Below, in pieces: positions 21,420 through 25,067 of a stretch of DNA of 64,000 nucleotides. The notes below the pieces were generated by a model that was not told the origin of the DNA, did not search any database, and saw nothing but the letters and a program-made list of their open reading frames with translations. Source of the stretch: Methanomicrobiales archaeon HGW-Methanomicrobiales-1 (GTDB lineage: Archaea > Halobacteriota > Methanomicrobia > Methanomicrobiales > Methanospirillaceae); NCBI GenBank assembly GCA_002839675.1, contig PGYM01000001.1:486683-550682 (forward strand), read 5' to 3'. Each line of letters opens with the position of its first letter. Position 1 is the stretch's first letter. The translations under genes and the position numbers were made by a program.

Positions 21420-21578
21420 TGAATGTATTATTATTGCATACCTCTACAAATGGTGATCGTTTTTTATGTTCCGCTTTTGTAGTGATGAATTTATGTTTGG
21501 AAAAATCTGCGTGCACAAACCATGATTTTTTTATTCACCTAATGCCTAATTGATAATTACAGAGTGAGGGTTATTTTT

Positions 21579-21848
21579 ATGCCAGAAAATCCGCAGTTGA
21601 TTGTATATACGCTAGAATTTTGCCCGAACTGCGACCTCCTGAAAGGGTTTTTAAAAACGGGGGGTCATGCTTTTGCCGAACGCGATCTATCAACAGCGGA
21701 ATCCCTTACCGAGCTGCGGCTGAACGGAGTCTTTGTTTCAGAAGCTCCCGTCCTGCAAGTGAATGACGACTTCTTTACCTCCGCAGATCTCTTTCCCTCA
21801 GGTAAACTGGATGGCGCACATATAACAAAACTGATTGCGGGTGAATGA
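21579..21848 (+). CDS. NrdH-like glutaredoxin-family redoxin
   Basis: An 89-residue thioredoxin-fold protein with the active site CPNC near residue 15 and a VSEAPVLQV segment containing the cis-proline. The start ATG at 21579 follows a gaggg ribosome site; an upstream in-frame ATG/GTG near 21564 is less likely. It overlaps the ribonucleotide reductase gene by 4 bases, so it most likely supplies the reducing equivalents for that enzyme. Class III reductases of methanogens are known to use a redoxin instead of formate (Methanosarcina barkeri system). Confidence 0.88.
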   Translation: MPENPQLIVYTLEFCPNCDLLKGFLKTGGHAFAERDLSTAESLTELRLNGVFVSEAPVLQVNDDFFTSADLFPSGKLDGAHITKLIAGE

Positions 21849-24031
21849 TGCCCCATAAGGAGACCCGCCAGCAGACTATCTTTGGTGCGTATGCCCCAAC
21901 CCTTCCCCCGGTGCGGACCAGCGATGGGCATATCGTCGAATGGGACCGTGACCGGATCATCCACCAGATTGTACAAGAGACCAAACTTGTCGAGACGTTT
22001 TACGGCTATCACGGTGCGGACGAGGCTACTGCGCAGGAGATTGCCCGGGACGTGGAGAACAAGATAAAAAGCATGGGACTCAAGTCCCTCTCCGGCCCCC
22101 TCATCCGCGAGATCGTGAATATTACCCTGCTTGAAAAGGGAATGATCCAATACCGGAATGTCTCAACCCGGGTCGGTACTCCTGTTTACGATGCTCACAT
22201 GATTGACGTGGGTAAGGGATTTGAAGCGCACGACAATGCGAACCTGCAGGAGAATGCCGAGACCAGCCACAAGAAGAAGGCGGACAAGATCTCCAAGGAA
22301 CAGTACCTGCTCCAGCTCCCGCCCAGTCTTGCCGACTACCACTTATCCGGCGAGATGCACATCCATGATCTCGAATATTTCGGCACGCGCCCGTTCTGCC
22401 AGGACTGGGACCTGCGCTACTTCTTCTATTACGGCCTGATGCCGGATGGCACCGGCACGAAAGCCTCGGTTGCGGGCCCGGCCAAGCGGGCGGAAGTTGC
22501 AATTCTTCACGCGGTCAAGGCGCTCGGCTCCGCCCAGACGAATTTTGCCGGTGGACAGGGCTATTATAATTTCTTAACCTTCCTCTCGCCTTTTGTCGAG
22601 GGCATGGCGTATGAAGAGATCAAACAGCTGATACAGATGTTTGTGTACGAGATGACGCAGATGATGGTGGCCCGGGGCGGGCAGCTCGTCTTCTCCTCCA
22701 TCCAGCTCACTCCCGGTGTCCCTTCCCTCTGGCAGGACAAGCCCTGTGTCTTTAAAGGAAAGGTCTGGGACGGGAAATCCGCACCCAAGCGAACCTATGG
22801 CGAGTTCGAGCGCGAGGTTCGCCTGCTCTTCAAGGCAACCATGGAAGTGATGCTTGAGGGTGACTACTGGGGCAAGCCCTTCAACTTCCCCAAGCCCGAG
22901 ATCAGCATTGAACCGGAGTTCATGGGTGAGCGCGAGGAGTTCAACAAAATGCACCCCGAGCTCCCCACGTACCAGGAACTCTACCTGCTGACCTTTGAGC
23001 TGGCCTCCAAGTTTGGCACGCCCTACTATGACAACCAGCTTCCCGCATACCGCGGTGCGGGCAAGGGCATCTCCTGTTACCAGTGCTGCGCTTACCAGTT
23101 CTCGGCAGTTGCGGAGGAAGATTCGGATTTCGACCGGAAACTCTTCTTTGAAGAAGGCAAGCATTTTTCGATGGGTTCGTGGCAGGTAGTCTCGGTCAAC
23201 TGCCCGCGTGCGGCTTACAATGCGGAGGGAGACGATGCCCGTCTCTTTGCCGAGCTCAAGAAACTCATGGATGTGGCAGTCGAGATCTTCAAGATCAAGC
23301 GCCGCTGGATGGACAATATCCGCGGGAACGGGCGGATGCCCTTTGCCATGCAGCGCCCCAAGGATCCCAACACGGGTGATCGCGGTGCCGTTGCCGTTGA
23401 TCTCGAAGGTCTCGTGTACACGATCGGTGTGGTCGGCGTCAACGAGATGGTCCAGCACCATATCGGAAAGCAACTGCACGAATCCAAGGACGCCTTCAAA
23501 CTTGCTATCCGGGCAATGACCGAGCTGGAACTCTACGGGCGCGAACTCAGCAAGAAGAACAACATGACCATTGCACTTGCCCGCACACCGGCCGAGACGA
23601 CCGGTCAGCGGTTTGCGGTAGCCGATCTTCTTGACCGCCGCTACCACGACTTTGCAGTAAAGGTGATCAAGGGCGACGTCGAGCTCGGCCTTGAACAACT
23701 GGGCAAATCCCGTGATCTCCCGATCTACTATACGAACGGTACGCACGTGGCCCCGGGGGCGAATGTTTCCCTGCCAAAGCGCATGGAGATCGAGCATGTC
23801 TTCTTCCCGATCGTAGATGGCGGCAACATCTTCCATATCTGGCTGGGAGAAGGGCGCCCCGATCCACGAGGTCTTATGGATATGGCCATGAAACTCTGCC
23901 GCACCACCCAGATCGGGTACTTTGCCTTTACCCGCGACATCACGGTCTCGCTCAAGCAGTTCCATGAGATGCGGCCGGAAAAGAAATCCATCAGCCAGTG
24001 GGAACCTTCCGATATTCCCGTGAAAGTATAA
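21845..24031 (+). CDS. nrdD: Anaerobic (class III) ribonucleoside-triphosphate reductase, no glycyl-radical tail
   Basis: A 728-residue NrdD. An ATP-cone fills about residues 20-115 (TSDGHIVEWDRDRIIHQIV). The catalytic barrel includes GEMHIHDLEYFGTRPFCQDW, NFAGGQGYYNFLTFLSPFVE, ISCYQCCAYQFS and NGTHVAPGANVSLPKRMEIE. After IGYFAFTRDITV, where NrdD proteins normally continue into a four-cysteine zinc site and the RVxGY glycyl-radical motif, this protein has about 30 unrelated residues and stops. No frame downstream encodes the missing part. The enzyme should therefore be inactive alone or complemented in trans. No nrdG activase gene is in the window. A redoxin gene overlaps the 5' end. Confidence 0.9.
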   Translation: MMPHKETRQQTIFGAYAPTLPPVRTSDGHIVEWDRDRIIHQIVQETKLVETFYGYHGADEATAQEIARDVENKIKSMGLKSLSGPLIREIVNITLLEKGMIQYRNVSTRVGTPVYDAHMIDVGKGFEAHDNANLQENAETSHKKKADKISKEQYLLQLPPSLADYHLSGEMHIHDLEYFGTRPFCQDWDLRYFFYYGLMPDGTGTKASVAGPAKRAEVAILHAVKALGSAQTNFAGGQGYYNFLTFLSPFVEGMAYEEIKQLIQMFVYEMTQMMVARGGQLVFSSIQLTPGVPSLWQDKPCVFKGKVWDGKSAPKRTYGEFEREVRLLFKATMEVMLEGDYWGKPFNFPKPEISIEPEFMGEREEFNKMHPELPTYQELYLLTFELASKFGTPYYDNQLPAYRGAGKGISCYQCCAYQFSAVAEEDSDFDRKLFFEEGKHFSMGSWQVVSVNCPRAAYNAEGDDARLFAELKKLMDVAVEIFKIKRRWMDNIRGNGRMPFAMQRPKDPNTGDRGAVAVDLEGLVYTIGVVGVNEMVQHHIGKQLHESKDAFKLAIRAMTELELYGRELSKKNNMTIALARTPAETTGQRFAVADLLDRRYHDFAVKVIKGDVELGLEQLGKSRDLPIYYTNGTHVAPGANVSLPKRMEIEHVFFPIVDGGNIFHIWLGEGRPDPRGLMDMAMKLCRTTQIGYFAFTRDITVSLKQFHEMRPEKKSISQWEPSDIPVKV

Positions 24032-24122: not shown

Positions 24123-25067
24123 ATGGGACAAAAATTCTGTACTGCTTGCGGGGCTGTCCTCTCCCCGGGGGTAAAATTCTGTGAAAGTTGCGGTGCGGCG
24201 ATTGAGCCGTTTCCCCCGGCGTTTCCCCCGGCGTTTCCCCCGGCCGGGAGCTCACCGGCACCCGCAGCGCCCGTATCTCCCGAACCGGCAGGAACAACGA
24301 AAGCAATCCCCCTTCCCAAGATCATTGTGGGAATCGTAATTGTCCTCGTTCTTCTGGCCGGAGTAGCGTATATTTTTGTGCTGCCAAAACTGTCCGGTGG
24401 ATCTATTCCTCCCGTTCTCCCAGGAACAACGGGAACCCCGACCCCTCTCGCTACCCCCGTGGTAACTGAATCGACACCGGCTATGGTTGCGACAATTGAG
24501 GTACCCCCGACCCTGATTCCCGATCCATTTCCGGATGCATACAAGGTGAAGGAGTTGTTCAATTTTAACGAAGGCAAGTACGCCAGCAGGGCAACCTTAT
24601 ACCGGTACTGGATGAATGCGACCTACCAGTGGCACAATGATATGGATAATCGCTACTATACGGAGAAACCGAAACAGGGATTCAAGTACCTGTTTGTCTT
24701 TGTGAATATCGAAAATATTGGTAAGGATGGGTATCCCTACCCGAAGTCCAGCATGATCCGTGTGCACAATGACGGTGATGTCTACTATGTCGACTCCACC
24801 CATTACCTTCCGGATAAGGCAACGGACCGCAAGGCGATACCTGTCGAGATTAAGGAAGTCGAGACGCAGTCCGATTATTTCAACCTGGAGCGGGTTGAGG
24901 ATTATGGGTACTCTCATGCAACTACCCAGGATTTTGTCTATCCCGGGCAGGGAAATGCGATCGATGGCTACCTGATTTACCAGGTACCCACGTCCCTGAA
25001 ACCAGAGGACACCTACGTTGAGATCCAGTTTGACAGCAATGACCGGGCTGCCTGGAAACTCGGCTGA
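24123..25067 (+). CDS. Zinc-ribbon membrane-anchored protein with DUF4352-like domain
   Basis: A 314-residue protein. It opens with a double CxxC zinc ribbon (FCTACG and FCESCG), then a proline-rich linker containing three tandem FPPA repeats, one membrane helix at about residues 65-90 (IIVGIVIVLVLLAGVAYIFV) and a Pro/Thr-rich spacer. The outside domain of about 180 residues contains FKYLFVFVNIENIG and a later VYPGQGNAIDGYLIYQV. The latter pattern resembles DUF4352/immunoglobulin-like domains of archaeal surface proteins. The function is unknown. It is a single-gene unit between the nrdD terminator and a convergent operon. Confidence 0.75.
   Translation: MGQKFCTACGAVLSPGVKFCESCGAAIEPFPPAFPPAFPPAGSSPAPAAPVSPEPAGTTKAIPLPKIIVGIVIVLVLLAGVAYIFVLPKLSGGSIPPVLPGTTGTPTPLATPVVTESTPAMVATIEVPPTLIPDPFPDAYKVKELFNFNEGKYASRATLYRYWMNATYQWHNDMDNRYYTEKPKQGFKYLFVFVNIENIGKDGYPYPKSSMIRVHNDGDVYYVDSTHYLPDKATDRKAIPVEIKEVETQSDYFNLERVEDYGYSHATTQDFVYPGQGNAIDGYLIYQVPTSLKPEDTYVEIQFDSNDRAAWKLG

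Follow-up and report, generated by a model that had tools for sequence, protein, structure and literature searches.

The class III ribonucleotide reductase (RNR) of the archaeal order Methanomicrobiales is encoded in two separate pieces. The 64,000-nucleotide stretch of DNA analyzed here (the window) carries the catalytic core of NrdD without its glycyl-radical domain (GRD), and a complete GRD is encoded as a small protein on a different contig of this genome. This division of NrdD is order-wide in Methanomicrobiales. Both chains and an activase are encoded, conserved, retained together and lost together; the genes for the two chains are adjacent in viruses, and the catalytic residues are intact. 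Judged from these sequences, the NrdD core and the separate radical subunit almost certainly form a two-chain class III RNR, and the pair is very probably functional in Methanomicrobiales, its activity being predicted from the conserved features described below.

The truncated NrdD core

The core gene and its features were located as follows (window positions, all on the forward strand):

21564..21848, +: NrdH-like glutaredoxin, 94 aa, with a CPNC motif (ORF; PF00462, 21.5 bits, just below the cut-off of 22.9)
21845..24031, +: NrdD catalytic core, 728 aa, without a GRD (ORF, PF13597, TIGR02487)
21911..22153, +: ATP-cone, residues 23-103 (PF03477, 26.0 bits; cut-off 25.8)
22397..22399, +: Cys185 (RPFCQD), invariant in fused and split cores (alignments including the viral set)
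23075..23089, +: finger-loop motif CYQCC with Cys411, Cys414 and Cys415 (alignment)
23912..23932, +: last predicted barrel strand, residues 690-696, IGYFAFT region (AlphaFold2 model)
23939..24028, +: 30-residue non-homologous tail in place of the fused GRD, predicted to be disordered (AlphaFold2 model)

The core matches the Pfam family NRDD (PF13597) over model positions 1-513 of 562 only, with 438 bits, and its match to TIGR02487 stops at position 529 of 581, with 460 bits; both scores lie above the curated cut-offs. Its identity to fused archaeal NrdDs is 65-68%, and the alignment holds through GYFAFTRDITV. The original prediction had described an NrdD that lacks the zinc and glycyl-radical C-terminus and follows the family until about 30 unrelated final residues; the end of the PF13597 match confirms the former, and the alignment with fused NrdDs the latter. 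The AlphaFold2 model of the core has a pLDDT of 76, falling below 50 at residues 697-728; the PDB entries that it resembles most are class III RNRs (E 8e-22). Among the cores of relatives, the tail is variable in sequence and similar in length.

Based on the roles of the corresponding residues in the family, Cys185 is the probable β-A active-site cysteine, and the CYQCC motif would include the thiyl-radical cysteine. Cys411, Cys414 and Cys415 are invariant among eight aligned proteins, and Cys415 is invariant in the viral set as well. The NrdD3 subtype, of the M. barkeri type, is distinguished by an extra finger-loop cysteine, the absence of an active-site Glu and an NrdH partner; the cysteine-rich CYQCC loop and the redoxin gene are both seen at this locus. 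The redoxin stop codon overlaps the core start by four bases (ATGA). Of 30 relatives, 24 have a CPxC redoxin ORF immediately before the core, showing that the redoxin coupling noticed originally is real and conserved.

The missing domain was sought in the three frames downstream of the core and is absent from them, as had been claimed. Scanning all six frames of the window for R[VIL]xGY returned a single, unrelated match and gave no sign of a frameshift that would restore the domain. The core is truncated at the same point in every Methanomicrobiales relative read, which excludes chance, a sequencing frameshift and misassembly as causes. The gene that follows the core (24123-25067) starts with two CxxC pairs (MGQKFCTACGAVLSPGVKFCESCGA) and continues with an apparent membrane segment; considered as a possible cysteine donor, it was rejected as an unrelated zinc-ribbon/membrane protein without RVxGY.

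A stand-alone glycyl-radical protein and a NrdG2-type activase

The genome that contains the window comprises 2.47 Mb in five contigs and is 97.7% complete. Two further loci are relevant here:

C2:364119-364481: stand-alone GRD protein, 120 aa, on a different contig from the core (NRDD positions 508-562, 54.2 bits)
C1:669444-670004: NrdG2-type radical-SAM activase, at a third locus (TIGR02495, 148 bits; cut-off 131)

A search of this genome with the NRDD family gave exactly two matches, which are complementary: the core covers positions 1-513 and the small ORF positions 508-562. The 120-aa protein contains YCPLCGKPVCPECGSHDVTQISRVTGYLQDVSGWNAGKQQELKDRTRY, a complete NrdD zinc/glycyl-radical domain with the motifs CPLCG..CPECG, SRVTGY (Gly95) and WNAGK..ELKDR, preceded by approximately 55 residues with extra cysteine motifs. 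The invariant positions of the GRD alignments include the CPxC cysteines, RVTGY and GWN-GK. Near this gene, the order is deoxyhypusine synthase (dhs), pyrF, GRD. AlphaFold2 modeled the GRD poorly (pLDDT 64, and under 50 from residue 90 onward), and a fold search with this poor model returned no significant match.

One of the possibilities raised originally, a radical domain encoded at another locus in the manner of YfiD for pyruvate formate-lyase (PFL), is thus borne out by the small protein with CxxC pairs and RVxGY that had been proposed as a search target. The same holds for nrdG, of which one NrdG2 over the curated cut-off is present, and the family search found no second full-length nrdD in the genome. 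Neither a class I or II RNR nor a PFL-type glycyl-radical domain was found in this genome, and PF01228 did not match the 120-aa protein up to E 1.

Distribution across Methanomicrobiales and related archaea

An NRDD match is present in 174 of the 199 genomes of the order; among the matches listed, the long one almost invariably represents a core and stops at model position 510-516. Strong matches to the stand-alone GRD occur in 169 of the 199 genomes (14 further weak matches, all in genus g27, were discounted); the frames are short and in no case continuous with the core, and among the matches listed these proteins are 70-95% identical over nearly their full length. The organisms with the split include Methanoregula, Methanolinea, Methanoculleus, Methanospirillum and Methanofollis. 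Core and GRD genes are far apart in host genomes, a point that we count against the two-chain reading. Of 80 GRD loci, 76-77 have dhs and pyrF genes nearby. Other orders of the phylum have a fused NrdD of 760-830 residues that includes the GRD.

Several genomes show additional arrangements. In G001, a cassette (L071:1525-4312) holds an additional fused NrdD of 565 aa, of the MGCR type, an NrdG-like protein and a thymidylate-kinase-like gene, with a transposase-like gene beside it (names assigned by eye); this NrdD was probably acquired horizontally. Many cores of the order, among them those of G052, G063, G096, G072 and G046, lie in frames of ~1,160-1,740 aa with broken family matches, and these long frames probably contain inteins. 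G034 has two NrdD cores with equal scores, at C1:285076 and C1:300796, 15.7 kb apart.

Selection, co-loss and genomes without another reductase

Within the order, pN/pS of the core is 0.11-0.22, and dN/dS of the GRD is 0.02-0.13. In genus g27 (family f6), the core, the GRD and NrdG2 are all missing and a class II RNR is present; NrdG2 was found in 26 of 26 genomes, against 0 of 11 in g27. This co-loss is one evolutionary event, but it involves three unlinked genes.

A class II RNR is also present in many relatives. However, no class I or II RNR was found in 24 of the 135 genomes of the order with at least 90% completeness, and the 20 of these that are listed all belong to the window's family. 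For draft genomes, this absence may stem from incompleteness. The complete chromosome CP121470.1 (Methanoregula sp. SKADARSKE-2) is nevertheless among the genomes without a class I or II RNR, as are the one-contig assemblies G156 and G182; each of the three contains core, GRD and NrdG2, and in CP121470.1 the core and the GRD are 1.06 Mb apart. Since no class I or II RNR was found in these 24 genomes, the split enzyme would be their sole RNR, and for such cells the only route to dNTPs.

Viral copies

Scans of IMG/VR revealed stand-alone GRDs on eleven contigs. On three of them (IMGVR_UViG_3300002220_006617, 3300027715_000146 and 3300044712_001062), the genes for GRD, NrdH redoxin and truncated core follow one another in this order on one strand:

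L264:3327-6076: viral GRD - NrdH redoxin - truncated core
L265:3383-6025: viral GRD - NrdH redoxin - truncated core
L281:3358-6016: viral GRD - NrdH redoxin - truncated core

The viral cores have 671-690 residues and end just past the same last strand as the host core. Surrounding genes include those for thymidylate synthase, MCM, DNA polymerase B, dCMP deaminase and tail fibre. The adjacency of GRD and core on these contigs provides the most direct evidence that the two are subunits of one enzyme.

The remaining viral GRDs are located at:

L238:2553-2939: viral GRD, no core found
L239:3736-4071: viral GRD, no core found
L240:4989-5303: viral GRD, no core found
L241:4995-5318: viral GRD, no core found
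L242:2422-2724: viral GRD, no core found
L243:5001-5333: viral GRD, no core found
L244:5001-5306: viral GRD, no core found
L261:6106-6462: viral GRD, no core found

The search for a core covered the whole record, possibly a fragment, for seven of these eight contigs, and 14 kb for L261. Neighboring viral genes include those for terminase, portal, a Cas4-type exonuclease, single-strand binding protein and primase. In the GRD at L241, the radical glycine is kept but is followed at once by ~11 additional residues (RVTGSKSKSCASLHGNLQDV), and the Tyr is gone; this GRD possibly carries an insertion or is an inactive copy. Among the INPHARED phages no stand-alone GRD was found, the five matches falling within genes of Enterococcus phages annotated as the large subunit of anaerobic RNR.

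Evolution of the split and stand-alone domains beside fused NrdD

In a tree of the cores built without the GRD columns, the split cores of the hosts form one clade (support 99/97), and host and viral split cores together are separated from the fused cores by one branch (support 99/96), the viral branches being long. Stand-alone GRDs also occur besides a full-length fused NrdD in some Methanosarcina-type (g63, g48) and f24 genomes:

L136:4982-5335: stand-alone GRD
L138:5467-5820: stand-alone GRD
L140:5362-5712: stand-alone GRD
L123:1483-2019: stand-alone GRD
L124:123-503: stand-alone GRD

These proteins are candidates for YfiD-like spare parts for RNR, and they share the extra cysteine motifs with the stand-alone GRDs of Methanomicrobiales. 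The GRD tree places the stand-alone group apart from the fused domains by a single split, which, with only 53 columns, is suggestive only. One reading, tentative as to its direction, is that the domain may have existed first as a YfiD-like spare part and become obligatory in Methanomicrobiales upon the loss of the core's own domain. A shortened GRD-like ORF without the WNxGK end was also observed (L143:5834-6160); the gene that immediately follows it probably encodes a class II RNR (name assigned by eye).

Proposed mechanism

In the two-chain enzyme, the 728-aa core would supply the ATP-cone, the specificity and active sites and the finger-loop cysteines, and the 120-aa subunit the catalytic glycine (Gly95). 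The GRD subunit would fold around its own zinc site and dock into the open end of the core barrel, with its N-terminal cysteine-rich module of ~55 residues probably acting as the docking element. Before or after docking, the NrdG-type activase would form the glycyl radical on the GRD. As in the family, this radical is expected to oxidize a finger-loop cysteine and thereby start nucleotide reduction, after which the NrdH redoxin encoded just upstream would re-reduce the cysteines, as in M. barkeri NrdD. For PFL, the small chain YfiD is activated only in the presence of the cleaved core, and its N-terminal half aids binding (PMC8683613); by analogy, the conserved N-terminal module of the GRD may serve the same end. 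A broader proposal, which we put forward tentatively as somewhat short of probable, treats the archaeal GRD as a component that can be exchanged. Methanomicrobiales would depend on it, some Methanosarcina-type genomes would keep it as a spare, and viruses would bring it in alone to seize or re-arm the NrdD core of the host while infecting it.

Alternative explanations

The GRD could instead serve mainly to repair oxygen-damaged NrdD in the manner of YfiD, having become obligatory once the core had lost its own domain. This is suggested by the g63, g48 and f24 genomes in which a stand-alone GRD accompanies a full-length fused NrdD, by the shared cysteine motifs and separate clustering (over few columns) of the stand-alone GRDs, and by the existence of such parts for PFL in T4 and E. 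coli (PMC8683613). Methanomicrobiales, however, have no fused copy to repair, so that repair cannot be the basic role there; we consider this account rather unlikely as the main explanation, and it describes the history and a possible second role of the GRD more than a competing mechanism. It is far less probable that the core works without a glycyl radical, through a new thiyl-radical route, and that the GRD serves another enzyme. The barrel and cysteines are indeed present in the core alone, but the genome holds no other glycyl-radical enzyme for the GRD to serve, and the GRD adjoins the core in three viral contigs and was lost along with it.

A dead or dispensable paralogue, with the GRD as a remnant zinc protein, had been among the original possibilities, and both the lack of a radical domain in the chain and the class II RNR of many relatives would agree with it. 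Order-wide conservation, strong purifying selection on core and GRD, intact catalytic residues, co-loss with NrdG2, viral operons and the 24 good genomes, including a complete chromosome, in which no class I or II RNR was found leave this explanation scarcely any probability, and we regard it as excluded. Least credible, to the point of being negligible, is an assembly or sequencing artefact that divides a continuous gene: although the pieces lie on different contigs of a draft genome, the same separation recurs in more than 100 genomes, including one-contig and complete ones, the GRD keeps its dhs and pyrF neighbors in nearly all loci, and the viral gene order is GRD, redoxin, core.

Comparison with known systems

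The closest characterized enzyme in the literature surveyed is the class III RNR of M. barkeri, of the NrdD3 type with NrdH (PMC9176816, PMC4493059). The split enzyme is of the same kind, given the 65-68% identity of the fused Methanosarcina-family NrdDs to the core, and has the same finger loop and a redoxin gene adjoining the core. In the fused Methanosarcina-family NrdDs, however, the GRD is the C-terminus of one chain, in frames of 760-830 aa, whereas the split enzyme has it as a protein of its own, extended at the N-terminus by a further cysteine module. In the class III RNRs of the literature surveyed, the radical glycine and the active site are always in one chain. A description of a split NrdD was not found in the literature searched, in which M. 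barkeri NrdD is covered through PMC9176816 and PMC4493059, so that a prior mention is possible.

Similar to YfiD/GrcA and phage T4 Y06I (PMC8683613), the 120-aa protein is a small stand-alone glycyl-radical chain predicted to act in trans on a large core, with an additional N-terminal half and virus-borne copies. Unlike YfiD/GrcA, it belongs to a different family, without a PF01228 match, and its expected partner is RNR rather than PFL; the two are analogous and, at the family level, not homologous. As the only GRD in Methanomicrobiales, it would be obligatory there rather than a repair copy like YfiD. PFL is the only enzyme for which spare-part proteins had been validated; that other glycyl-radical enzymes might have them too was left as an open possibility (PMC8683613). 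The split NrdD bears directly on whether stand-alone glycyl-radical parts extend beyond PFL, and our scans show that viruses carry such a part of the NrdD type. It also offers a system for studying the timing of activation, possible turnover or exchange of the radical subunit, and the way in which the barrel tolerates an open C-terminal end.

Among RNRs, a distribution of function over two chains is also seen in class I (NrdA and NrdB), with the radical on the second chain, and in the split class II enzyme of P. aeruginosa (NrdJa/NrdJb). In contrast to both, the split NrdD retains a whole barrel and has only its glycyl-radical domain on another chain, and the radical cofactor and the second chain are unrelated to theirs. 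The two-chain form, apparently the sole RNR of some archaea, would thus set radical storage apart from catalysis, a separation that class I RNR also achieves, by quite different means.
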